Positions 5,080 through 15,577 of a DNA stretch of 64,000 nt are shown here, piece after piece (within the stretch, counting starts at the first letter, position 1; the number at the start of each line of letters is the position of its first letter). Source of the DNA: Alicyclobacillus sacchari (lineage in GTDB: Bacteria > Bacillota > Bacilli > Alicyclobacillales > Alicyclobacillaceae); assembly GCF_004366795.1 (NCBI RefSeq), contig NZ_SORF01000001.1, forward strand, positions 186,001 to 250,000, written 5' to 3'. Made by a program: the position numbers and the translations under genes. The notes under the pieces were generated by a model that had not been told where the DNA came from, did not search any database, and saw only the letters and a program-made list of their open reading frames with translations.

Positions 5080-5508
5080 TCAATATTTTCGAATGGTATA
5101 GCCGTCCTTCAACAGATACCAAAGCTGCGGAAATTCATTGCCAAGCACCCACATGGAAACGCCACGCAACTGATATTCGTCCACTAACGCCAACTTAATG
5201 GCGGCGCTTTGGGCGTCATCAAACCACACGCGATGCTGCACCCCGGCAACTGTGTATTCAAAATATGGAGACGCCGATTTGATGTCCCAGAGGATGGGCG
5301 CCCTCTCCGCAATAGCCAAATTTTGCGCTGTATTGTTTGACACGCCACTGGCCCTCGTGCGCCCTTTCTCGTAAGGCAGCGGCCAATCATACCCGTACAA
5401 GGACATGCCCATGAGAATCTTGCCTGGCTCGATCACGCTGGTGGCGTACGTCAACACTTCCCTCACCTGATCGATAGGGGCGATGGCCATCGGTGGTCCG
5501 CTTGCCAT
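5080..5508 (-). CDS. C-terminal fragment of an interrupted SleL/YaaH-type spore peptidoglycan hydrolase (GH18)
   Basis: This is the second half of a GH18 domain and is not a protein on its own. From GPPMAIAPIDQVREVLTYA it follows the SleL/YaaH family to its normal C-terminus (MGMSLYGYDWPLPYEKG, RVWFDDAQSAAIKLALVDE, GVSMWVLGNEFPQLWYLL). The catalytic DFE motif and the LysM repeats are missing and lie 9.1 kb away in the same orientation, at 14542-15498. The only native part is up to position 5501; the few residues before GPPMA are encoded by the inserted element. Joined at the shared core, the two parts give a 429-residue protein. See the mobile element entry. Confidence 0.9.
   Translation of the reverse strand: MASGPPMAIAPIDQVREVLTYATSVIEPGKILMGMSLYGYDWPLPYEKGRTRASGVSNNTAQNLAIAERAPILWDIKSASPYFEYTVAGVQHRVWFDDAQSAAIKLALVDEYQLRGVSMWVLGNEFPQLWYLLKDGYTIRKY
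5485..5501. repeat. Attachment-site core, left junction of the skin-like element
   Basis: GGCCATCGGTGGTCCGC on the plus strand. The copy at 14614-14630 differs only at the tenth base (T here, A there). On the coding (minus) strand it reads GGA CCA CCG ATG GCC (Gly-Pro-Pro-Met-Ala) in the GH18 frame. Identity stops abruptly on both sides. Confidence 0.88.
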
Positions 5509-5515
5509 GATCAAA

Positions 5516-5521
5516 CTACAT
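5516..5521. repeat. Inverted arm near the left end of the element
   Basis: CTACAT on the plus strand, 14 bp inside the left core. Its inverse ATGTAG lies at 14599-14604, 9 bp inside the right core. In the circular form the two would face each other at equal distance (20 bp) from a central CC dinucleotide, as expected for a serine recombinase attP. The arms are short, so the support is moderate. Confidence 0.45.
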
Positions 5522-5536
5522 ATGGACCGATCCCTG

Positions 5537-7072
5537 TTATACCTCTGCAAACCTGTAACGGATGACCGCTGAGATGTCGGGATTGAACGAAATGAGCCTC
5601 ACCTCTTGTACCAGCGTCGTTAGGATACGCCGCTGGATGGAGGCGGATTCCAAGTCGAATGAGCGAACCGCTAACCAAGGGAGAATCCAATCGGCAAGCC
5701 GGACCTCCTCGTGACCATGGTCTTCCTGTCCTCCTGACGCCCCCTCTAATGCGGCCAACCGTTCGCGCAATTGACCGTTGAGATGATCAAACTGCGCCAG
5801 TGAAAGTGCACCACACGCATAAGCGGCAAACAACTTCTCGAATTGGGCGACAAGGCGCGATCGCTCAACATCTATCGCTTGCCGACGCAGCGGTCTGCCT
5901 GTCACGACACGATCGCGCAGGGGCAAATGCGTGACAACATCTTCCCTGATCCGCTGTAAGACCGCCTGTTCTAGGTCATCCGCACGCACATATGGAGCCG
6001 TACAGGCGACCCGTCCAAACTCCGCCTGGCGAGCGCAGCGATAATAGAGCGTGTGATGCCCATTCTCCTTCGTCACAAGCCTCCCTCCGCACGTGCAGCG
6101 CGCCACCCCCACCAGCAGGTGCACACTTCCATCACGCCCGCGCTGCAAACGGCGCTCCTGCAAGCGATGCGCAACCGCTGCAAACATGTCGCGATCGACC
6201 AAAGCCGGATGTGCTTCGGGCACATGCACAATTTCGGCGTCATCGTGCACCCAATCCGTACGGCGTTCGACGATGCCCGACTCCCCCTGCCGAAAGCGCA
6301 TCCGCTTGGTTCGCCTGCCATACACGATCTCGCCGCAATAGACCGGGTTTTGCAAGATACGTGCAATCCGACGCTGGCTCCATAGCTTCCCATTCGCCGT
6401 GACAATGCCTTGCTGATTGAGTCGTTCCGCGATGGCCCGACATCCGAACCCAGCCAGATACATCGCAAAGATCTGACGGATCACCAGGGCTTGTTCATCG
6501 TCGATTTCAAGCCGTTGTGTCTCGCGATTCAACCGATAGCCGTCGGGTGGTCGGCCATTCCACCTGCCGCTGCGAGCCTTTTGCATCGCTCCAAGTCGCA
6601 CTCGAACCGATGTCTTCTCCGATTCAGCCTGGGCTAAAGCGCTGTGAATCGTAAACACAAACTCGGCCCGATCGCGATGACTATCAAAGTTTTCCTCAAT
6701 TGATATAACCTGAACACCACAAGCGATTAACGAACGCAGCATCGTCAAAGCATCCACCGTATCGCGCGCAAAACGGGATATGCCTTTACAGAGCAGGACG
6801 TCAAAGCGGCCATGCCTGGCATCTTCCAAGAGCCGCAGTACGGCGGGCCGCTTGACCATACTCAAACCGGTGATCCCTTCGTCGACATACACGAGCTCGT
6901 CTGGGACCACCCATACCTCTTCCGCATCACTTGCTCGCCTGCGCGCATATTCGCGCGCATACGCAATCTGATGGTCAAGTGAATCACCGTGCACCTGTGA
7001 CTCGTCGGACACGCGAGCGTAGATGGCGCAGACGCGGGCAGCGCCATTGTCAGGGCTTCGCCTCTGGATCAT
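5537..7072 (-). CDS. Large serine recombinase (resolvase/integrase family)
   Basis: 511 residues from the ATG with AAGGAG seven bases upstream. The N-terminal resolvase domain has the catalytic serine in YARVSDESQ (Ser22) and the usual GISRFARD and IEENFDS motifs. The recombinase domain follows (GRWNGRPPDGYRLN, then a second HTH-like part SQRRIARILQNPVYCG). Next is a zinc ribbon (CTCGGRLV, then YYRCARQAEFGRVAC) and a C-terminal coiled-coil-like stretch. The architecture and length match phage integrases and SpoIVCA-type developmental recombinases. It lies just inside the left junction and its start overlaps a 47-aa reading frame by four bases. It is the obvious enzyme for insertion and excision of the element. 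Confidence 0.95.
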   Translation of the reverse strand: MIQRRSPDNGAARVCAIYARVSDESQVHGDSLDHQIAYAREYARRRASDAEEVWVVPDELVYVDEGITGLSMVKRPAVLRLLEDARHGRFDVLLCKGISRFARDTVDALTMLRSLIACGVQVISIEENFDSHRDRAEFVFTIHSALAQAESEKTSVRVRLGAMQKARSGRWNGRPPDGYRLNRETQRLEIDDEQALVIRQIFAMYLAGFGCRAIAERLNQQGIVTANGKLWSQRRIARILQNPVYCGEIVYGRRTKRMRFRQGESGIVERRTDWVHDDAEIVHVPEAHPALVDRDMFAAVAHRLQERRLQRGRDGSVHLLVGVARCTCGGRLVTKENGHHTLYYRCARQAEFGRVACTAPYVRADDLEQAVLQRIREDVVTHLPLRDRVVTGRPLRRQAIDVERSRLVAQFEKLFAAYACGALSLAQFDHLNGQLRERLAALEGASGGQEDHGHEEVRLADWILPWLAVRSFDLESASIQRRILTTLVQEVRLISFNPDISAVIRYRFAEV

Positions 7073-7212
7073 GGCTGGTTCTCCTTGCACGACACCCCTG
7101 AACTAACCACAGATCGCATCAACTCCAGGAGTCGATCCGCGATGACGGCTGGATCGACCGTTCCAAACTCGACGCGCGATACTTTCACGAGTTTCCGCTT
7201 TGGCATCGGCAT
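7069..7212 (-). CDS. 47-aa basic protein translationally coupled to the recombinase
   Basis: Begins MPMPKRKLVKVSRVEF; a helical stretch VIADRLLELMRSVV follows. The stop shares the sequence ATGA with the recombinase start, so the two are coupled. A G-rich ribosome binding site directly precedes the first ATG, and a second ATG two codons on is also possible. The N-terminus is basic and the size suits a small DNA-binding accessory protein, such as a recombination directionality factor, but I recognise no family. It could also be a leader that couples translation. Confidence 0.5.
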   Translation of the reverse strand: MPMPKRKLVKVSRVEFGTVDPAVIADRLLELMRSVVSSGVSCKENQP

Positions 7213-7374
7213 CCCCCCGCCTAACCGTATGCCGTAACCCCCCGTCCATTTGCCCGTTGCCGACGGCTATCGAAAAAAGTTTTGAAACCCGGACTCGTTT
7301 AAGTTTGTTTCAAGGATCATTGGGTAGAATGAGAAAGTGTAGATGAAATACGATGTGATGGGCAGGTGCGAAGG

Positions 7375-7491
7375 ATGTTCGGAACAATTGCGGCCATCGT
7401 CCTCATCACGGCCGGCATGATTTCATTGAATCGTTATGTGAAGAAGCAAACCGAACGACTGGAACAAAAAATTCAGTCGATGAAAGCTTGA
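7375..7491 (+). CDS. 38-aa single-span membrane peptide, hypothetical
   Basis: Begins MFGTIAAIVLITAGMISLN, one membrane span, followed by a charged amphipathic helix (VKKQTERLEQKIQSMKA). A -10-like TAGAAT lies about 45 bp upstream and AGGTG about eight bases before the ATG. The tidy hydrophobic-then-charged layout suggests a real peptide, perhaps a membrane anchor or partner. No family recognised. Confidence 0.45.
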   Translation: MFGTIAAIVLITAGMISLNRYVKKQTERLEQKIQSMKA

Positions 7492-7523
7492 TATCGGTTT
7501 TTACATCTCCCCTTCTTTGCTTG

Positions 7524-7554
7524 AAAAAGGCCGCAGGAGTACATACCTGCGGCC
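7524..7554 (-). terminator. Intrinsic terminator of the amino-acid permease gene
   Basis: On the minus strand a perfect 9-bp stem GGCCGCAGG/CCTGCGGCC with an 8-base loop is followed by TTTTT. It lies 27 bp after the permease stop and could also stop plus-strand transcription of the 38-aa gene. Confidence 0.85.
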
Positions 7555-7580
7555 TTCTCTACATCGGTGACGATTGATGC

Positions 7581-9068
7581 TCAATCGAGATCGAAATCGA
7601 CTTCCGAAAGCGGAATAAGCTTTGTCCGTTTGATCCACTTGTAGCCGAACCACAAGGCCAAAAACAACGGAATCCCGATGTACGTCGCAATGACCCCTGT
7701 CCAATCGACTTTACCGCCCGTAAAGGCGCTGATATCTTGCCCAACGATGACAACGGCACACAACACCGTTGCAAGCAGCGGCCCGAACGGATACCACTTC
7801 GCGCGGTACGCCAGCTTGTTCAAGTCGCGTCCCTGTGCGAGATAAGCCTTGCGGAACCGATAATGACTGACGGCCACCCCGAGCCAAGCTAGGAAACCCG
7901 TCAAACTGGCTGCGTTCATCATCCACGTATAGACAGCGCCATTGCCGACAAACGATGAGAGAAATGCAACAAATCCTATGATGGTATTGACATAGAGCGC
8001 GTTCATGGGCACACCGCGGCGATTGACCTGCGCAAATACGCGCGGCGCTTTCCCTTCACAAGCAAGTGCCCAAAGCATGCGACTCGATGCGTACAAAGAA
8101 GAATTCCCTGCTGACAGCACAGCCGTCAAGATCACAGCATTCATCACCGCTGCTGCAAGCGCAAACCCTGCCCTGCGGAACACAAGAGTGAAGGGACTGA
8201 TGGCCACATTGTTCACGCTGGCATTCAGTAAGTTTGGATCCGTATAGGGAATCAGCATACCAATGAGGAAAATGGCCAACACATAAAACAACAAAATGCG
8301 CCAAAACACTTGACGGATCGCCCGCGGCACAGCCCGCTCCGGATTATCACTTTCGCCAGCAGCCAGGCCTACCAATTCCGTCCCCTGAAAAGCGAACCCT
8401 GCGACCATCACGGTGCCAAGAAAGCCCAGCCAACCACCGTGAAAGGGCGTCCCCCCTGTCATAAACGTGTGCCAGCCAACAGAATGCCCGCCCAAGATTC
8501 CGAAAATCATGGCTAAACCAATGACAATAAAGACGATAATGGTCAATACCTTAATTCCAGCAAACCAATACTCGCCCTCCCCGTATCCTCGCACGGACAC
8601 GACGTTTAGCAAAAACAACACTGCGAGAAACACGGCACTCCAAACCACGGAAGGCGTGTGTGGAAACCAGTACTTCATCACAATCGCGCCCGCCGATAAT
8701 TCTGCTGGCAATGTAACGGTCCATGTGTACCAATAATTCCATCCAAGCGCAAAACCAAACGCCGGATCGACAAAACGTGTGGCGTACTGTTCAAATGACC
8801 CCGCAATGGGCATGAATGTGGCCATCTCACCGAGGCTGGTCATAATGAAATAGACCATGATGCCGACAATGATATATGCCAACAGCGCGCCGCCAGGCCC
8901 CGCCGTGGAAATGGACGATCCACTCGCCACAAAAAGTCCCGTCCCGATGGCTCCACCCAGAGCGATCATCGACAGGTGGCGAGATCGAAGTTCACGATGC
9001 AGGCCAACCTCTGCGTTTTTGCGCACGGGTTGCTCTGAGAATGGTGTACTTGCTGGCCTCTGACTCAC
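7581..9068 (-). CDS. Amino-acid permease of the APC family, LysP-like
   Basis: 495 residues, about 12 membrane segments. Starts at a GTG with AAGGAG eight bases upstream. HRELRSRHLSMIALGGAIGT at the N-terminus and FQGTELVGLAAGESDNPERA in the middle are hallmarks of the APC amino-acid permeases. The segment IRQVFWRILLFYVLAIFLIG and PYTDPNLL closely resembles lysine permease LysP. It imports a cationic or other amino acid with protons at the cell membrane; lysine is my best guess. It sits alone within the skin-like element with its own terminator. Confidence 0.88.
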   Translation of the reverse strand: MSQRPASTPFSEQPVRKNAEVGLHRELRSRHLSMIALGGAIGTGLFVASGSSISTAGPGGALLAYIIVGIMVYFIMTSLGEMATFMPIAGSFEQYATRFVDPAFGFALGWNYWYTWTVTLPAELSAGAIVMKYWFPHTPSVVWSAVFLAVLFLLNVVSVRGYGEGEYWFAGIKVLTIIVFIVIGLAMIFGILGGHSVGWHTFMTGGTPFHGGWLGFLGTVMVAGFAFQGTELVGLAAGESDNPERAVPRAIRQVFWRILLFYVLAIFLIGMLIPYTDPNLLNASVNNVAISPFTLVFRRAGFALAAAVMNAVILTAVLSAGNSSLYASSRMLWALACEGKAPRVFAQVNRRGVPMNALYVNTIIGFVAFLSSFVGNGAVYTWMMNAASLTGFLAWLGVAVSHYRFRKAYLAQGRDLNKLAYRAKWYPFGPLLATVLCAVVIVGQDISAFTGGKVDWTGVIATYIGIPLFLALWFGYKWIKRTKLIPLSEVDFDLD

Positions 9069-9238
9069 CTTGTTAACTCCTTTCTTGTCCCGAAAATCAT
9101 CCTATAGCGTGCAAATGCAGATCGCAATGAGAAATGCTTTCCTTCGATAAAGAAATAGTGAGATAAAGTGATATCACATAATCAAACGCAGCTTGGACAC
9201 CCTCAATAGCAGTTACATTTGTAAGGAGGAGGCATTTC

Positions 9239-9784
9239 ATGAAACGGTTTGCTGGCTGCCTTTCTATGTCGGCTCTGCTGTTTTGCCTATTGGCTCCAAC
9301 CGGTGCAAGTGCTCTTGTGGTCGATTCTGGCCACAAAGGGGACATCGAGTTTCGGGTTGGGTCCTCGACCTCGACCGTGGTTGCCAATGCTCGCGTGATC
9401 GTCATTAATCACGAGGGGAGCATCGTCGCCACCGGTCTAACCAATGCGCAAGGTACATGGGACGCCAAGGTCCCCATGTACAAGGCGGACTGGAACAAAA
9501 AATTTGAGGCTAAGGGCGTGGTCAGTGCCATCGTCGTGGCAGACGGCTTCAATGAACAGGCTGTATACATCATCCCGATCACGGAACACACGGTGCAACC
9601 GGTCATCCTGCAGCCGATACAAGCCAACCGCCGTAACGCTCCGTCGACCTCCCTTGGTAACTTTAGTACACACGACTTAAAACGCTACATCGACCGTTAC
9701 GCGTCCGAGCTCAAGCTCAAGCGGCAGGCGCCCATTCCAGGCGACCCCGAATACGCCCCGTGGAGTCCACAGCAACAGCAATAA
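9239..9784 (+). CDS. Secreted protein with a carboxypeptidase-regulatory-like beta-sandwich, hypothetical
   Basis: 181 residues with a strong AAGGAGGAGG ribosome binding site. Residues 1-25 are a signal peptide (MKRFAGCLSMSALLFCLLAP, then TGASA). The mature part (EFRVGSSTSTVVANARVIV, GLTNAQGTWDAKVP) resembles the CNA-B or carboxypeptidase-regulatory fold. The C-terminus is polar and ends in a Gln run. The SpoIID-domain gene follows 15 bp later with its own ribosome binding site, so the two probably act together outside the membrane. Exact role unknown. Confidence 0.65.
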   Translation: MKRFAGCLSMSALLFCLLAPTGASALVVDSGHKGDIEFRVGSSTSTVVANARVIVINHEGSIVATGLTNAQGTWDAKVPMYKADWNKKFEAKGVVSAIVVADGFNEQAVYIIPITEHTVQPVILQPIQANRRNAPSTSLGNFSTHDLKRYIDRYASELKLKRQAPIPGDPEYAPWSPQQQQ

Positions 9785-9799
9785 GGAGTGTGCCTGCCC

Positions 9800-10411
9800 A
9801 TGCGTGCTTTGAGGTCTCTGCAATTGGCACTAGCGTCTGCTACGCTTGTATTCGCACTGGAACAGGCTCCGGTGGCAAGTGCCCAGACGATTTATAACAC
9901 ACCTTATCCTTCCGTCATTCGGGTTGCCATCCGCGCCAACAACAACCCGACCAGCCCAATTTTGTACGTGCAAACGGTAGGTTTTGAAGAGTATTGCGAA
10001 GACGTATTACCGAACGAATGGGTGCCGAGTTGGAACCCCGAAGCTTTGAAGGCTGGCGCGATTGCGGTGAAGATGTTCGCATGGTATTGGTCGCTCCACC
10101 CAACAACTGAAGGTGGCTTTACATACGATGTGGACAACACAACCAATTTTCAGACCTTCAAGTATCTAAGCGGCCAAGTTGCCACCGATCTGGCGGTTCA
10201 GGAGACGTGGAACATGGTGTTCGTGCCGGGCGACGGCTCCATTCGACCACTCGACTTTCGCGCTGGCACTCCAGACGGCAGCAATTCGGGATATGTTGGA
10301 ACCTTCATCATGTCACAATGGGGATCGCAATATTGGGCTCAAACGGGAAAGCTCCCATTCACGACGATCCTTAGCCTCTTTTACCCTGGGTATCAACTGC
10401 GATTTGTATAA
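9800..10411 (+). CDS. SpoIID/LytB-domain secreted protein
   Basis: 203 residues from the ATG 11 bases after AAGGAG; a GTG four codons earlier would overlap that site. A signal peptide ends near ASAQT. The SpoIID signature is clear: VGFEEYCEDVLPNEWVPSWN followed by EALKAGAIAVKMFAWY, and at the C-terminus MSQWGSQYWAQTGK. SpoIID is a lytic transglycosylase acting on denuded glycan strands during engulfment; LytB-type relatives stimulate amidases. This copy is short (SpoIID itself is about 340 residues). It is not the housekeeping spoIID by context, being cargo of the skin-like element. Confidence 0.8.
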   Translation: MRALRSLQLALASATLVFALEQAPVASAQTIYNTPYPSVIRVAIRANNNPTSPILYVQTVGFEEYCEDVLPNEWVPSWNPEALKAGAIAVKMFAWYWSLHPTTEGGFTYDVDNTTNFQTFKYLSGQVATDLAVQETWNMVFVPGDGSIRPLDFRAGTPDGSNSGYVGTFIMSQWGSQYWAQTGKLPFTTILSLFYPGYQLRFV

Positions 10412-10430
10412 CACCACGGTATTACCAGAG

Positions 10431-10450
10431 GCCGAGCCAAGGCGCTCGGC
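10431..10450 (+). terminator. Possible weak terminator after the SpoIID-domain gene
   Basis: Six-base stem GCCGAG/CTCGGC with an 8-base loop, followed by TCCCCTCTT. Weak, but it separates the SpoIID gene from the sigma factor gene. Confidence 0.35.
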
Positions 10451-10541
10451 TCCCCTCTTGACTCATCCCCTGCCGCCTGCGATCTTTTCCGTTTTGGTAC
10501 GTCTAAGTAGATGTACAGAGATTGCGAGGTGCCATGGTCTC

Positions 10542-11060
10542 ATGGAAGCTTACCCACCAGCGGTCCGCGAAGAGGTTTCAAGGCTATACGAGCGCTATGC
10601 GGACGATGTCTATCGCTATGCCAGATTTGCTCTTGGCGGTGAAGACGATGCATACGACGTGGTACAGGAGGTGTTTTTACGCGCTCTTCGGGGCTGGTCG
10701 AGATTTCGCGGAGAAGCAAGCGAGCGCACCTGGCTGCTGCAGATCGCACGAAATGTCATGTGCGACAAGTTTCGTAGACGACGATCAGAACAGGCTGCGC
10801 TGCGATGTGCACCAGTCCCTGATTCCAAGTGGCAACATACGGTAGAAGCTTCCGTCGTGATTGAAAGTGCCATCAGGCGTCTTCGCGATTCCTACCAACA
10901 AGTTGTCATTCTGCGTCATATTGAAGGTCTCACCGTAGAAGAAACCGCACAAGTACTCGGTTGGAACGAGAACAAAGTACGTTCGACAACGCATCGAGCG
11001 CTCGTCAAGCTACGAGATATGCTCTCCGACGATGACGAAACGGAGGTTGGGGGACATTGA
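10542..11060 (+). CDS. ECF-type RNA polymerase sigma factor
   Basis: 172 residues from the ATG encoding MEAYPPAVREEV; GAGGT lies about 11 bases upstream. A much longer upstream frame is rejected because it runs through the SpoIID gene. Region 2 is LYERYADDVYRYARFAL then DDAYDVVQEVFLRALRGW and RTWLLQIARNVMCDKFRRRR. Region 4 is QQVVILRHIEGLTVEETAQV then GWNENKVRSTTHRALVKLRD. Length and layout match ECF (group 4) sigma factors. The stop overlaps the next gene by four bases (TTGA), which fits a sigma/anti-sigma pair. Target promoters unknown. Confidence 0.92.
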   Translation: MEAYPPAVREEVSRLYERYADDVYRYARFALGGEDDAYDVVQEVFLRALRGWSRFRGEASERTWLLQIARNVMCDKFRRRRSEQAALRCAPVPDSKWQHTVEASVVIESAIRRLRDSYQQVVILRHIEGLTVEETAQVLGWNENKVRSTTHRALVKLRDMLSDDDETEVGGH

Positions 11061-12157
11061 GCAACTTGCACAATATCGAGCAAGAGTTGGCAAACATGAG
11101 GTCCGTCCGTATGTCACAAACACAGCGACAGCGCATCTGGCAAAACATCGAGGCCGACATGCGCAGCACACGCAAGCGAGCATTCGTCAATACCCGGGGC
11201 AGATGGGCATCGATAGCCGGTTTGGCGGCAGCCATCGCTCTCGTCGCAGGCGGCTATGGTATTCAGGAAAAGTCGCAAGCCTCGAGAACGGTTGTCAATT
11301 CGCCAGCCAAAGCGATCCCTGCGATTTCAGATATCCTGTACCATTTGACCGACTACGCAGTACAGGCGAATCAATTGACAGTTCCGTTCTACGAAGACGG
11401 CAACGTGATTCGCGAACGGATTCCGGAGCAGCAGAGCTTGGCAGCAGCCAAGGCGCATAGCCCATGGCGGACAGATCCGGTTCAGTCAGCACAGGTCTAT
11501 ACAGGCAATCTACTGCCTGCGGGTTTTGCTCATACAGGCTGGACTACCACAAAACACGATGCACTGACAACCAGCCTAAACGGCGTGATCGTCTCCTATC
11601 AATTGTTGAGCAGGAACGATTCTGTTTCTCCACCCATAGCCAAGGTGCGACTGTCGATCACGGGCGAAGGACATGCATCGTACTATCTGATTTCCCTTTT
11701 TGAATTGCAGCACAGGTATGTATGGGACATTGCGCAAATCGCCCGTTCAGCAGCCCCGCCTGTTGCACTGCCGACACGGATCAAGTCACTGTCGATTGCC
11801 AGCGGTCCCGCCGGTGCCGGTTACGATCCCAATGATCTACATGCCGTTTCACGACAAGTGACAGCGTGGTTGCAGCAGGCTACTCGCACAACATGGGAGC
11901 TTCCAACGCCTTCGCCGAATCTGGTGTTTAACGCATACGTGGGTCCAGACATGCTATTTTTCACCGCAGCGGATAACACGCCGATTTCCATCACGCCGGC
12001 ATACACGATCATAAAGACCAAGAGCGGGTATCAGATACAAACTCAGCGAGATACCATCGAATACAGGACTCCTACAGAAGTGGCGTATCTCCATTGCCCA
12101 GCCCTCTACAAATGGCTCGACGATCACGCTTGGCGGCTTTCGTTTCACATTGCGTGA
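11057..12157 (+). CDS. Putative membrane-anchored anti-sigma factor
   Basis: 366 residues, starting at a TTG that overlaps the sigma factor stop (TTGA). Residues 1-45 are polar (RMSQTQRQRIWQNIEADM) and would face the cytoplasm; one membrane span follows (WASIAGLAAAIALVAGGYGI); the remaining 290 residues lie outside. This is the usual plan of an anti-sigma factor with an extracytoplasmic sensor. No zinc-binding HxxxCxxC motif is present, so it is not a ZAS-type anti-sigma. The function is inferred mainly from the overlap with the sigma gene. Confidence 0.65.
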   Translation: MSNLHNIEQELANMRSVRMSQTQRQRIWQNIEADMRSTRKRAFVNTRGRWASIAGLAAAIALVAGGYGIQEKSQASRTVVNSPAKAIPAISDILYHLTDYAVQANQLTVPFYEDGNVIRERIPEQQSLAAAKAHSPWRTDPVQSAQVYTGNLLPAGFAHTGWTTTKHDALTTSLNGVIVSYQLLSRNDSVSPPIAKVRLSITGEGHASYYLISLFELQHRYVWDIAQIARSAAPPVALPTRIKSLSIASGPAGAGYDPNDLHAVSRQVTAWLQQATRTTWELPTPSPNLVFNAYVGPDMLFFTAADNTPISITPAYTIIKTKSGYQIQTQRDTIEYRTPTEVAYLHCPALYKWLDDHAWRLSFHIA

Positions 12158-12390
12158 TCGTCCGTGTGCACATGCACATCCATGCGATACCTCATATCCA
12201 CCGTGTTGCTTGAGCCATGTCGTCAAATTGCCCAAGCAACACGAGCCTTGTGGGTTGTTCACATCACAACCGCAGCGCGCTGCAACAACGATTTCAGCGT
12301 CATGAAAGGCACGGATTTAGCAAGTGTCTGCAAGCAATCCAAACCTCATCAGGCTTTGTGGATTGGGGCATGGATGCACGCGAACAGCAA

Positions 12391-12843
12391 TCAGCCATTT
12401 GTATGATCTCCGCTCGGGTATTCACCTAACACGTCCGTAATCAACGTTTTCACGCGATCGCGAATCTCATCTCGAACTTCTCGGAAATGCGCCATGATCT
12501 CCTCCTGCGTGCCGGAGGCCTTCGCGGGGTCTTGACATCCCCAGTGCAAATGCCGCACGTGAGCCGGGGTTGCCGGACACTTGTCGCGTGCATCCCCACA
12601 AAGTGTAATGACGATGTCCGCGCGGTTCAGCATATCTCGATCGATCAGATCCGAAGTGTGGTGAGAGATGTCAACACCGGCTTCACACATGACGGCTACA
12701 GCCCGCGGATTCAGACCATGCCGCTCAACGCCCGCGCTCTGCACTTCAATATGATCCCCCGCAAAGTGCCGCGCCCAACCTTCTGCCATCTGGCTGCGGC
12801 AGGAATTGCCGGTGCAAAGAAAATAGATAAATGGTTTTTTCAC
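12391..12843 (-). CDS. arsC: Arsenate reductase, thioredoxin-coupled type
   Basis: 150 residues from a GTG with GAGGAGGG upstream. The low-molecular-weight phosphatase-like P-loop [18 protein letters not shown] supplies the first catalytic cysteine, and [11 protein letters not shown] supplies the second and third, as in the B. subtilis/S. aureus ArsC family. Reduces arsenate to arsenite in the cytoplasm, for export by ArsB. Last gene of the arsRBC operon. Confidence 0.95.
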
Positions 12844-12860
12844 CGAAATCCCTCCTCACA

Positions 12861-14165
12861 TCAATGCACAACGAGCATCCAGACATACAAACCAGATAGA
12901 GTGATAAACAACGTGGGAAGCGTGAGAATCACACCTGTCTTGAAGTATTGCGCCCAGCCGATACGAACGCCTTTTTGTGCCAAGACGTGCAACCAAAGCA
13001 ACGTCGCAAGGGAACCAATGGGGGTGATTTTCGGCCCCAAATCGCAACCGATGACATTGGCATATACCATCGCTTCACGCATCAGACCCGTTACAGCCGC
13101 GGAATGTATGGCAAGTGCACCAACCATGACTGTCGGCAAATTGTTCATGATGCTCGACAGGATGGCAGCAGCGAAGCCTGTGAACAAGGTCCCGCCGTAC
13201 AACCCTCCGTGCGTCGACCACTGCATGAGACGTCCCAGGAGGTTGGTGAGCCCCGCATTGCGCAGTCCATAAACGACGACATACATACCTATAGAAAAGA
13301 CAACAATTGACCAAGGCGCCGATCGAACGGTTCGCCACGGCGCAACGGTCTTCGTACGCGCTCCGGCTATCAAAAAAGCAAGCGCAACCGCGAGTGTGAT
13401 GAAACTCACGGGGATATGTAGCAACTCGGTTAAAACGTAGCCGACGAGCAGTATGACGAGGATAATCCAGGATGCTCGAAACATGCCTCGATGCCGGATG
13501 GCACTTGCCGCGTCCGGCAAATCACTCGGACGGTACTCCCTTGGAATATCTTTTCGAAAGAACAGGTATAACATCAAAAAACTAGCACCAAATGCAACCA
13601 AGTCAGGTACAACCATGTGCAGGGCGTAGCTGATAAACCCAACGCCAAAGTAATCGGCAGACACGATGTTCACAAGATTGCTCACAATGAACGGAAGTGA
13701 CGTGGTATCGGCGATAAACCCGCTCGCAAGAACGAATGGCAACATCCTCTTCGTGTCGAATTTGAGCAATTTCACTTTTTCGAGAACAATGGGCGTCAAA
13801 ATGAGCGCAGCTCCGTCGTTGGCAAAAAACGCCGAGACAACGGCCCCTAGAGTAATGACAAACAAAAAAACTTTTCTTCCATTCCCTTTGGCTGCGTGCG
13901 CCATTTTGAGCGCAGCCCATTCGAAAAAACCGATTTTGTCCAGGATCATGGAGTTCATGATGATGCCTACAAAAGCCAGCGTCGCATCCCAGACAATTTT
14001 CGTCACCGACCATACATCCGCGACATGCACAACATGCAATAACAGCGCAAGCACTGCACCACTTACGGCGCTCCATCCAATCGACAAACCTTTGGGTTGC
14101 CATATCACAAACACCAACGTCACGACAAATACAGCCATGGCTAACCATGCGGTAGACGCCATCAT
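12861..14165 (-). CDS. arsB: Arsenite efflux pump
   Basis: 434 residues, 10-12 membrane segments. Typical ArsB features: LAFVGIIMNSMILDKIGFFE, GAVVSAFFANDGAALILTP and IMNNLPTVMVGALAIHSA. Exports arsenite across the cell membrane, driven by the proton gradient. Its ATG overlaps the arsR stop (ATGA), so the operon is tightly coupled. Confidence 0.95.
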   Translation of the reverse strand: MMASTAWLAMAVFVVTLVFVIWQPKGLSIGWSAVSGAVLALLLHVVHVADVWSVTKIVWDATLAFVGIIMNSMILDKIGFFEWAALKMAHAAKGNGRKVFLFVITLGAVVSAFFANDGAALILTPIVLEKVKLLKFDTKRMLPFVLASGFIADTTSLPFIVSNLVNIVSADYFGVGFISYALHMVVPDLVAFGASFLMLYLFFRKDIPREYRPSDLPDAASAIRHRGMFRASWIILVILLVGYVLTELLHIPVSFITLAVALAFLIAGARTKTVAPWRTVRSAPWSIVVFSIGMYVVVYGLRNAGLTNLLGRLMQWSTHGGLYGGTLFTGFAAAILSSIMNNLPTVMVGALAIHSAAVTGLMREAMVYANVIGCDLGPKITPIGSLATLLWLHVLAQKGVRIGWAQYFKTGVILTLPTLFITLSGLYVWMLVVH

Positions 14166-14497
14166 GTGGCCACACCCTCACAGTCGACCGAAAATCGCGG
14201 ATGGGGGAGATCATCCAATTCTCTCGTCATCTCCGACAACTGGTGGAGCGATATGCCTACTTCCACGAGCCGTGCCTTGTTCAGCGAGTAAAATACCCAC
14301 ATACCTCTGCGTGTTTCCTGCACAAGGCCCACTGCCTTCAGCCGGCTGAGATGTTTTGAAATCGCAGGCTGTGAAATACCAAACAAAGGTACCAACTCGC
14401 ATACGCACCGCTCACGAACGTTCAACAGCGCAATCATGCGAAGGCGCGTTGGATCTGCCAAGGCCTTCAACGTGTTCGCGAAACTGTCAAAGTCCAA
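14162..14497 (-). CDS. arsR: Arsenical resistance operon repressor
   Basis: 111 residues. ArsR/SmtB winged helix with ALADPTRLRMIALL, the metalloid-binding motif ERCVCEL (CVC pair in the third helix) and the recognition helix ISQPAISKHLSRLKAVGLV. First gene of arsR-arsB-arsC, with a palindromic operator in its promoter. Releases DNA on binding arsenite. Confidence 0.95.
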   Translation of the reverse strand: MDFDSFANTLKALADPTRLRMIALLNVRERCVCELVPLFGISQPAISKHLSRLKAVGLVQETRRGMWVFYSLNKARLVEVGISLHQLSEMTRELDDLPHPRFSVDCEGVAT

Positions 14498-14515
14498 TCT
14501 CGATCACCTCGATAC

Positions 14516-14545
14516 ATTATAACTATATCGTTATAAACTCATCAA
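14516..14545 (-). promoter_or_regulatory. ars promoter with ArsR operator
   Basis: The perfect inverted repeat TTATAAC-TATATC-GTTATAA (14517-14536) overlaps a minus-strand promoter: -10 TATAAT at 14516-14521 and -35 TTGATG at 14540-14545, 18 bp apart. A repressor bound to the palindrome would block the -10 box. The promoter lies 69 bp inside the right end of the element. Confidence 0.8.
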
Positions 14546-15498
14546 ATGGATAGCTGTATATCACCCACTTCAGGAATCAGTCTCGCTCGGCCGTGCACAT
14601 GTAGCATCTTGCAGGCCATCGGAGGTCCGCCGACCCATCCCCACTCGTACGTCATCAGCATCACAAAATCGACTTCCTGGCCCAGCGTTCGATAATCGAA
14701 CGCGCCCATCCAAGGCTGGTTTGGGTTGTCCCCTGTCTTCGGGCCCATGGCGATGGAAATGCTGAGATTGCGGCCCCTGAGAACATTCCCCAACTCACGG
14801 ATAAATTCATTGTACAATGGCCGATCCGGTGGATCCATATGCTCAAAATCGACGTTGACCCCCGCGTACCCTTTTGTCGTGCAGATAGACAAAACCTGGT
14901 CGATGACCGTCTGGCGCAGTGAACGGTTGGCCAAAATGGAATGCGCAAGCTGCGTGTTGAAATTGTTACCATCAAAATTCGTGATCGTCACGAGTGGACG
15001 AATGTTGTACCGTTTTGCCGTGGAGAGCACGATGTCGTCTTTCGGAGCTTCGAAGTGGCCATCGGCGCGAACCTGGTAAGAGAACGTACATACGTATGTC
15101 AGATCGGAAACGTCCCCAAGTATCTCTTCATCGCTCCGTTCGCCTGTCGGTACAATGTACCCGTTCACCTCGATGGTTCTTCGCGACGTGCGGCGCACGG
15201 GCAGATAAATCTGCGAACCGACAGAAAGTGAGGAACCTGTCACAAAACCGGTCCAGCTGGCGAAGACTGCTGGTGAAATGCCGAAACGCTGCGCAATCGA
15301 CTCTGGTGTATCACCAGCCTGAATGGTGTAGGGCTGAACAGCGAGCGGATCGCCCTTCGGAATCAACAGTGCAAGACCCGATACGGTTTCGGAGCGCGAA
15401 GGCAGCTCATTGTAGCGCAGGATATCGCGCACCGACACGCCATAGGTAGCGGCAATTTGCCTGAGCGTCTCTCCAGAACGGACGCGATGAATTCGCAT
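14542..15498 (-). CDS. N-terminal fragment of an interrupted SleL/YaaH-type spore peptidoglycan hydrolase (LysM-LysM-GH18)
   Basis: 318 residues as it stands, from the ATG (MRIHRVRSGETLRQI) with GGAGG seven bases upstream; a longer start is possible but lacks this site. Two LysM repeats (about residues 1-48 and 55-100) bind peptidoglycan. The GH18 barrel begins near residue 110 and contains the catalytic DFE motif (GYAGVNVDFEHMDPP). The family sequence continues to LMTYEWGWVGGPPMA and then stops: the last 23 residues (CKMLHVHG onwards) come from the element. The missing C-terminal 134 residues lie at 5080-5484. SleL/YaaH enzymes are N-acetylglucosaminidases acting on spore cortex muramic-lactam peptidoglycan in germination. 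As encoded here the enzyme is incomplete and probably inactive until rejoined. Confidence 0.92.
   Translation of the reverse strand: MRIHRVRSGETLRQIAATYGVSVRDILRYNELPSRSETVSGLALLIPKGDPLAVQPYTIQAGDTPESIAQRFGISPAVFASWTGFVTGSSLSVGSQIYLPVRRTSRRTIEVNGYIVPTGERSDEEILGDVSDLTYVCTFSYQVRADGHFEAPKDDIVLSTAKRYNIRPLVTITNFDGNNFNTQLAHSILANRSLRQTVIDQVLSICTTKGYAGVNVDFEHMDPPDRPLYNEFIRELGNVLRGRNLSISIAMGPKTGDNPNQPWMGAFDYRTLGQEVDFVMLMTYEWGWVGGPPMACKMLHVHGRARLIPEVGDIQLSI
14599..14604. repeat. Inverted arm near the right end of the element
   Basis: ATGTAG on the plus strand, 9 bp inside the right core; inverse of CTACAT at 5516-5521. Confidence 0.45.
14614..14630. repeat. Attachment-site core, right junction of the skin-like element
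   Basis: GGCCATCGGAGGTCCGC, matching the left core at 16 of 17 bases. On the minus strand it encodes Gly-Pro-Pro-Met-Ala in the GH18 frame (GGA CCT CCG ATG GCC). Beyond its lower-coordinate edge the sequence leaves the GH18 family. Confidence 0.88.
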
Positions 15499-15577
15499 GG
15501 TATAGCCTCCCTGGTGCCAAACAGTCACTCCAGCCTATGCTGGGCAATCGTTCGCTGCGCATCCGGGATCTCGATAT

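Follow-up and report, generated by a model that had tools for sequence, protein, structure and literature searches.

A sleL-intervening element of Alicyclobacillus sacchari, with mostly different counterparts at the same codon across the Alicyclobacillales, probably restores the split gene by excision

How can a gene that is cut in two remain under selection as one? The question is raised by a 64,000-nucleotide stretch of the Alicyclobacillus sacchari genome (NCBI RefSeq assembly GCF_004366795.1, contig NZ_SORF01000001.1, positions 186,001 to 250,000; hereafter the window), in which a sleL/yaaH gene is interrupted by a 9.1-kb element that encodes a large serine recombinase (LSR). We consider it likely that this element, which we call slin (sleL-intervening), is integrative and is excised by its own LSR together with a small protein, thereby restoring sleL in the sporulating mother cell.

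The two half-genes lie on the minus strand where the initial annotation had placed them (Table 1), and the 17-bp repeat with one mismatch that it had described is present at both junctions, with a core-to-core distance of 9129 bp. Fusion of the halves at this repeat gives the expected protein of 429 amino acids, in frame and free of stop codons. Two solved chains, 4s3k (YaaH) and 4s3j (cortical-lytic enzyme), each cover both halves from end to end, and because the same two chains match both we take the halves to be parts of one SleL/YaaH protein. The fused product, with its LysM repeats and GH18 domain, is collinear with these chains over its full length; they carry the names cortical-lytic enzyme and spore germination protein, and the interruption lies within GH18. 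The LSR ends 36 bp inside one junction, as had been noted (stop codon at 5537, repeat end at 5501), and its frame is open over the whole length, so that the window element has an intact serine recombinase and att sites at both ends. In 29 related genomes the same gene is uninterrupted at the same site. The interpretation offered by the initial annotation, a split sleL that excision of the element could restore, is thus supported in every prediction that can be examined at the level of sequence. The recurrent order-wide family, tandem arrays, conserved leader, small overlapping open reading frame (ORF) and second target gene described below are sequence observations that go beyond it.

We then searched 59 genomes of the order with each sleL half as query, and fetched and re-aligned the loci (G and L codes denote genomes and loci searched; the window genome, of 2.95 Mb, is G000, and G003 and G006 are the closest relatives searched). 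The gene is split at the same codon, by mostly different elements, in 17 of the 59 genomes, or 17 of the 48 that are readable across the site, and the split is therefore not due to chance. The split genomes comprise nine of the 15 of the window's own genus; G016, G031 and G061; G018; G021; G025; G029; and G041, which belongs to another family. Both halves stand in one uninterrupted frame in 29 genomes, two (G010 and G019) are contiguous across the core and later broken or cut off, and 11 could not be scored at sleL, where a contig ended or no clear ortholog was found. The span between the halves is 3.7–41 kb in the 15 loci contained on single contigs, those of G031 and G021 each lying on two. 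Joining the flanks restores the gene in all 17 cases, with frames of 424–495 amino acids that contain no stop codon.

G010 and G019 were considered as split genes and rejected. The frame table for G010 looked split; its sleL is broken about 36 codons past the core, and the 3′ piece, which contains a stop codon, lies 118 kb away (G010:C1; L089, L090), and some other event seems truly to have disrupted the gene. The G019 frame crosses the core and runs to the contig end. Extra 3′ pieces are found elsewhere in G033, G019 and G017, all contiguous across the core, the G017 piece also including part of the N-half; these are perhaps relics of past insertions or paralogs, and none of the three genomes was scored as split.

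The only word common to all 34 junctions is GG(A/T)CC-N-CC, and since nothing more is shared the crossover most likely occurs inside it. More than one LSR of the family is present in four loci (three in G001, and two each in G005, G008 and G031); each of the five LSRs that is not last in its locus is trailed by a GGACC core within 60 bp, and we therefore regard these loci as tandem arrays. On a sleL tree of 36 rows, 17 of them split and 19 uninterrupted (one G001 paralog and 18 of the 29 genomes above), at least six changes of state are required, whether gains or losses, with four split rows on long, unsure branches. All 17 split genes have GGACC at attL, compared with four of the 19 uninterrupted rows (Fisher p 7e-7, which is a guide only because the rows are related). 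In the remaining 15 uninterrupted rows the core glycine codon has changed synonymously from GGA to GGC, GGT or GGG, and this may reflect host escape from insertion.

LSR elements often insert into genes, and ordinary insertional inactivation, in which such elements have hit a conserved site and sleL is dead, is one alternative. The window genome has other GH18 genes (five matches, two of them the sleL halves), and G010 demonstrates that sleL can truly break. The 17 in-frame, stop-free joins speak against this explanation, as does the selection acting on the gene. The ratio of non-synonymous to synonymous divergence (dN/dS) was 0.045 for the N-half and 0.046 for the C-half between G000 and G003, and 0.038 and 0.031, respectively, between G000 and G006, at a synonymous divergence (dS) of 0.96–1.21. 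G003 and G006 carry the same syntenic element, with an LSR 80% identical to that of the window, and six element genes compared with these two genomes have a dS of 0.73–1.64, around the sleL value; we conclude that the element has probably been resident throughout. Both halves have therefore stayed at 0.03–0.05 over a dS of about 1 in lineages that each carry the element, and are as constrained as the uninterrupted gene (0.046–0.157 in six pairs of orthologs). Values for the N-half and C-half in other split pairs were 0.045 and 0.032 (G003–G006), 0.051 and 0.047 (G007–G012), and 0.093 and 0.073 (G004–G008). The 3′ half would appear to be in use, because otherwise such conservation could not persist, and the low dN/dS of both halves while split argues strongly that the gene is not dead. 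Inactivation is thus strongly disfavoured and we consider it very improbable, even allowing for a C-half value of 0.161 in G016–G061.

Alternatively, the two halves might be translated separately and their products come together as a working enzyme. The N-half could be expressed from its own start and retains both LysM repeats. However, the cut inside the GH18 domain is against such assembly, and independent translation of the C-half is unlikely because the open codons that precede it number none in G041 and two in G025. We attach almost no weight to this possibility, and return to restoration of the gene by excision.

The last LSR lies 9–59 bp ahead of the attR core in 10 of the 17 loci and runs into the core in three; in G041 it abuts attL. 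All 22 LSRs are preceded, at a distance of no more than 450 bp, by a conserved leader consisting of GGAC (or GTAC, AGAC), exactly 12 bases, and CATA, a pattern drawn up after the sequences had been seen; it also occurs in 66 of 2040 windows of 450 bp taken at random from these elements, some of which overlap real sites. Between leader and LSR, overlapping or adjacent to the latter, is a small ORF in 21 of the 22 cases, whose stop codon overlaps the LSR start by 4 bp in nine. Sixteen of these ORFs were found with a hidden Markov model (HMM), circularly for the eight that built it, the G000 copy matched weakly (E 0.05), and those of G003, G006, G025 and one G001 copy were recognized by inspection; for G031_16274 and G061 at least, the frame picked automatically was not the right one, and the true small ORFs were identified separately. 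The window LSR most likely starts at 7072, where ATGA overlaps the small-ORF stop, and not at a longer upstream GTG. The small ORF matched nothing in PHROGs or Pfam. We propose it, by analogy, as a candidate recombination directionality factor (RDF, or excisionase) of the LSR, because the RDFs of such elements can be small, as is GirX, of 42 amino acids (PMC5595907).

An inverted repeat surrounds the small-ORF ribosome-binding site, with modest support. In a hand-drawn leader stem 77.3% of cells were paired compared with 71.4% in shuffled alignments, and covariation was 0.209 compared with 0.129 (0 of 500 shuffles in each case); stems slid out of register paired at 27–47%. RNAalifold predicted no pair on leader alignment A2, and the leader was not accepted as an RNA hairpin, as two-sided changes were seen in only three of 11 pairs, with no excess over shuffles (421 of 500), and further pair types showed no excess either (177 of 500). 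We regard an operator dyad and an RNA hairpin as equally likely. The leader might be a standard promoter, its CATA words being similar to the −10 boxes of mother-cell genes, but a constant GGAC-N12-CATA spacing is not known to match any sigma consensus. It was not accepted as an LSR half-site, GGCAANNGGAC resembling by eye the element side of some attR sites and not of most. A copy of the leader pattern with its inverted repeat lies outside the element in A. suci (L108:15254), beyond the sleL 3′ half. A 14-kb contig of A. tolerans (L106) encodes a further LSR of the family, with a GGACC core after it and a small ORF and a stretch resembling the leader before it, and this genome may also carry a tandem array.

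The LSR family has a second target. Sister LSRs, 46–58% identical, lie between the halves of a gene for an HtrA-like protease, cut at its AIG/NPLG codons, in L112, L115, L116, L117 and L136. The join is clear in L115, L116 and L117 and in frame in L112, where the exact core is unsure; in L136 both halves are present and the automatic join was placed on the wrong core. The two halves of this gene are conserved: for L115–L117 the N-half has a dN of 0.063 at a dS of 1.67, and the C-half a dN of 0.005 at a dS of 1.06. The order-wide search found the HtrA-like gene split in G022, G043, G047, G053 and G054, which appear to be the same five genomes. A single scan of a genome collection for LSR relatives gave 64 loci, of which 18 had at least 46% identity and the other 46 had 39% or lower; the 18 were titled Alicyclobacillus or Alicyclobacillaceae (12) or Bacillota metagenome-assembled genome (six). 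Viral contigs (IMG/VR) gave four relatives, at 29% identity, and plasmid and phage records none at 60% identity or more. Excised forms of slin on plasmids or in phages were thus considered and set aside, as these viral, plasmid and phage records hold no close LSR. Separately, a second sigK-like gene of the window genome is in two pieces (profile residues 4–66 and 65–225) with a serine recombinase between them (G000:C4:81292-84452, L176), a candidate 2.4-kb skin-like element for which the trial join was out of frame; an intact sigK-like gene is present on C5.

When might excision occur? The joined gene could be produced occasionally or constitutively in a subpopulation, with no developmental cue, and still be frequent enough for selection to act on it. 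SleL family members act in spores, as the names of the matched chains also indicate, and this argues for a cue. So does the word CATAGG(C/G/T)T, which stands ahead of sleL in all 13 loci of the window's own genus that were read and which we take to fit in part the −10 element of the mother-cell factor sigma-K (CATAnnnTA); CATAGG is found also in three of the HtrA-element leaders (L116, L117 and L136). These words are suggestive of mother-cell timing, without proving it. Among precedents, excision of skin, SPbeta and gin is sporulation-specific (PMC4191935, PMC5595907), whereas yin, an element of C. botulinum, is reported to be excised at all time points (PMC10747680). We therefore think excision without a developmental cue unlikely, if less so than inactivation.

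In the scheme that we favour, a slin element, devoid of recognizable phage genes, is an integrative element that occupies the GGPPMA codons of sleL/yaaH, where its own LSR would recognize the GGACC core. The small ORF and the LSR would be expressed from one operon, presumably on a shared transcript, in the cell that needs sleL; the small protein would switch the LSR to excision, attL would be joined to attR, and an exactly restored sleL would result. If skin and gin are a guide, the cell in question would be the sporulating mother cell; as this cell dies, it would cost the germ line little to retain the element with its cargo, which in the window is arsenic resistance.

Several observations weigh against this scheme. 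If a directionality factor were produced along with the integrase, it would impede integration unless the two were under separate control. The small ORF is weakly constrained, with dN/dS of about 0.4 (G000–G003/G006), 0.5 (G004–G008), 0.85 (G007–G012) and above 1 (G003–G006); it is missing at one of the 22 LSRs, and its AlphaFold model (16 rows; one helix, pLDDT 80.9, pTM 0.40) found only two matches in Foldseek, with E near 8. The LSR lies kilobases from attR in G005, G021 and G025, and both G005 LSRs are short (407 and 428 amino acids). The leader pattern, besides being defined after the fact, fits only one of the five HtrA-type loci (L136), the spacer being 11 bases in L115–L117 and the last word CATG in L112. 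Outside the genus the CATAGG form is exact in just one of 20 loci read. Finally, in the split pair G016–G061 the C-half, at 0.161, is less constrained than the N-half, at 0.064, and the pairs G031–G061 and G001–G005 are saturated at synonymous sites and could not be scored.

Table 1. Features of the split sleL locus and its intervening element (window coordinates)
Feature	Position	Strand	Description and evidence
Possible mother-cell promoter −10	15534..15539	-	CATAGG word upstream of sleL, context GCATAGGCTG; sequence comparison
SleL/YaaH 5′ half	14614..15498	-	2 LysM repeats, then the start of GH18; 295 codons to core; 4s3k residues 5-297, 4s3j residues 5-295; counterparts in 17 split and 29 uninterrupted relatives
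attL	14614..14630	-	Core repeat on the gene side, with GGACC (+ strand: GGTCC, 14624-14628); sequence comparison
ArsR-type repressor	14162..14497	-	Adjoins attL; Pfam, NCBIfam
ArsB arsenite efflux pump	12861..14165	-	Sole match to this ArsB in window genome; Pfam, NCBIfam
ArsC arsenate reductase	12391..12843	-	Thioredoxin type; TIGR02691, 214 bits vs cut-off 174
Possible anti-sigma protein	11057..12157	+	Overlaps end of ECF gene; position only, no domain match
ECF-type sigma factor	10488..11060	+	blastp cluster found in 8/17 elements
SpoIID/LytB-domain protein (cargo)	9788..10411	+	Pfam SpoIID 43.5 bits vs cut-off 23; under NCBIfam cut-offs
Protein of unknown function (cargo)	9239..9784	+	N-terminus signal-peptide-like by eye; no Pfam match
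Amino acid permease (cargo)	7581..9068	-	Family match; also in G003 and G006 elements
Leader block GGAC-N12-CATA	7228..7247	-	Conserved; GGCAA before it; upstream of small ORF, overlaps inverted repeat around its ribosome-binding site; pattern before 22/22 LSRs
Small ORF, candidate RDF	7069..7206	-	45 amino acids; stop overlaps LSR start by 4 bp; weak HMM match (E 0.05), clear homologs in G003 and G006
LSR	5537..7072	-	511 amino acids; resolvase, recombinase and zinc-ribbon domains; ends 36 bp from attR; YARVSD motif invariant across 11 aligned LSRs; 80% identity to G003/G006
attR	5485..5501	-	Core repeat; word GGACC (GGTCC on + at 5495-5499); sequence comparison
SleL/YaaH 3′ half	5080..5501	-	Remaining GH18 to natural C-terminus; Pfam GH18 positions 211-316; 4s3j residues 291-429, 4s3k residues 293-431

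The window element does not have the contents of a prophage. No phage structural or replication family was found among its proteins in Pfam or NCBIfam, and of five proteins scanned against PHROGs only the LSR matched, the phage-gene scan having been made on this one of the 17 elements. Ten proteins of the other elements were domain-scanned, the remainder of their cargo being known from ORF starts only. By blastp clusters, ArsB is present in four of the 17 elements (G000, G001, G003 and G006) and a metal-sensitive repressor in four (G001, G005, G007 and G012). The G007 element carries a heavy-metal P-type ATPase, the metal-sensitive repressor and a manganese-efflux family protein, as well as an ECF sigma factor with a zinc-finger (zf-HC2) protein next after it, and the G005 element a cation efflux protein. 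The ECF-type cluster recurs in mostly different elements (G000, G001, G003, G005, G006, G007, G012 and G031).

Split sporulation genes named in the literature are sigK, spsM, spoVFB, spoVR, gerE and yabG (PMC5595907, PMC10747680, PMC13141910, PMC4191935). The words sleL and yaaH are absent from the main text of these four papers, and no report of a sleL-intervening element was found in the literature searched, whose scope left out most subscription papers and bioRxiv preprints. From its sequence we read slin as a new case in the skin/gin class, with sleL as target. Gene-intervening elements of spore-formers have so far been scattered cases; here one codon of one gene is cut repeatedly across an order, and the repeated cuts, with strong selection on both halves, offer comparative evidence from nature that elements can persist stably by regulated excision, and that this is more than a curiosity. 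The loci also supply candidate att sites, a candidate integrase/excisionase pair and a leader, and suggest a non-phage route for parking metal resistance in a germination gene. Whether they represent widespread non-phage 'developmental cassettes' of the Alicyclobacillales, with a shared LSR family, leader and adjoining small excisionase gene, which pile up in tandem in a gene needed only by a doomed cell, often carry metal resistance cheaply and have also moved into a gene for an HtrA-like protease, is a proposal for which we see even chances.

Gin, in gerE of B. cereus ATCC10987, resembles slin in having no phage genes, splitting a sporulation gene and carrying several serine recombinases, and in having a short core (9 bp in gin); its 42-residue RDF, GirX, has a possible counterpart in the small candidate RDF of slin (PMC5595907). 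Gin excision has been demonstrated, whereas that of slin we infer; slin also differs in splitting another gene, forming tandem arrays and spreading across an order. In slin the small ORF overlaps the start of the LSR or lies next to it, downstream of a conserved leader, an arrangement that we describe for slin alone, and not for girX/girC. Skin, in sigK of B. subtilis, likewise splits a mother-cell gene and carries a serine recombinase and an ars operon, but it is a phage remnant of 42–48 kb with an Acr3-type pump, compared with 9.1 kb, an ArsB-type pump, no recognizable phage gene and another target gene for slin (PMC12607644, PMC13141910). SPbeta, in spsM, also splits a spore gene by means of an LSR, and unlike slin is an active prophage (PMC4191935). 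Among full-length solved relatives, the one closest to the window LSR is YokA, the SPbeta recombinase, although the similarity is low (71.5 bits).

The best NCBIfam matches of the window LSR are CcrB and CcrC, the recombinases of staphylococcal cassette chromosomes (SCC), with scores so far under the Ccr cut-offs (136.9 bits against 900 for CcrB, and lower for CcrC and CcrA) that the element does not belong with SCC. SCC cassettes accrete in tandem at one conserved chromosomal site, as slin elements do, but they insert at the end of rlmH and leave it working, whereas slin cuts its gene mid-way. Within the genus itself, the MMB025 prophage in sigK of Alicyclobacillus acidoterrestris is, like slin, a recombinase-bearing element that splits a sporulation gene; it differs in being a phage, in its target gene and in its core, TCTC (PMC13141910).

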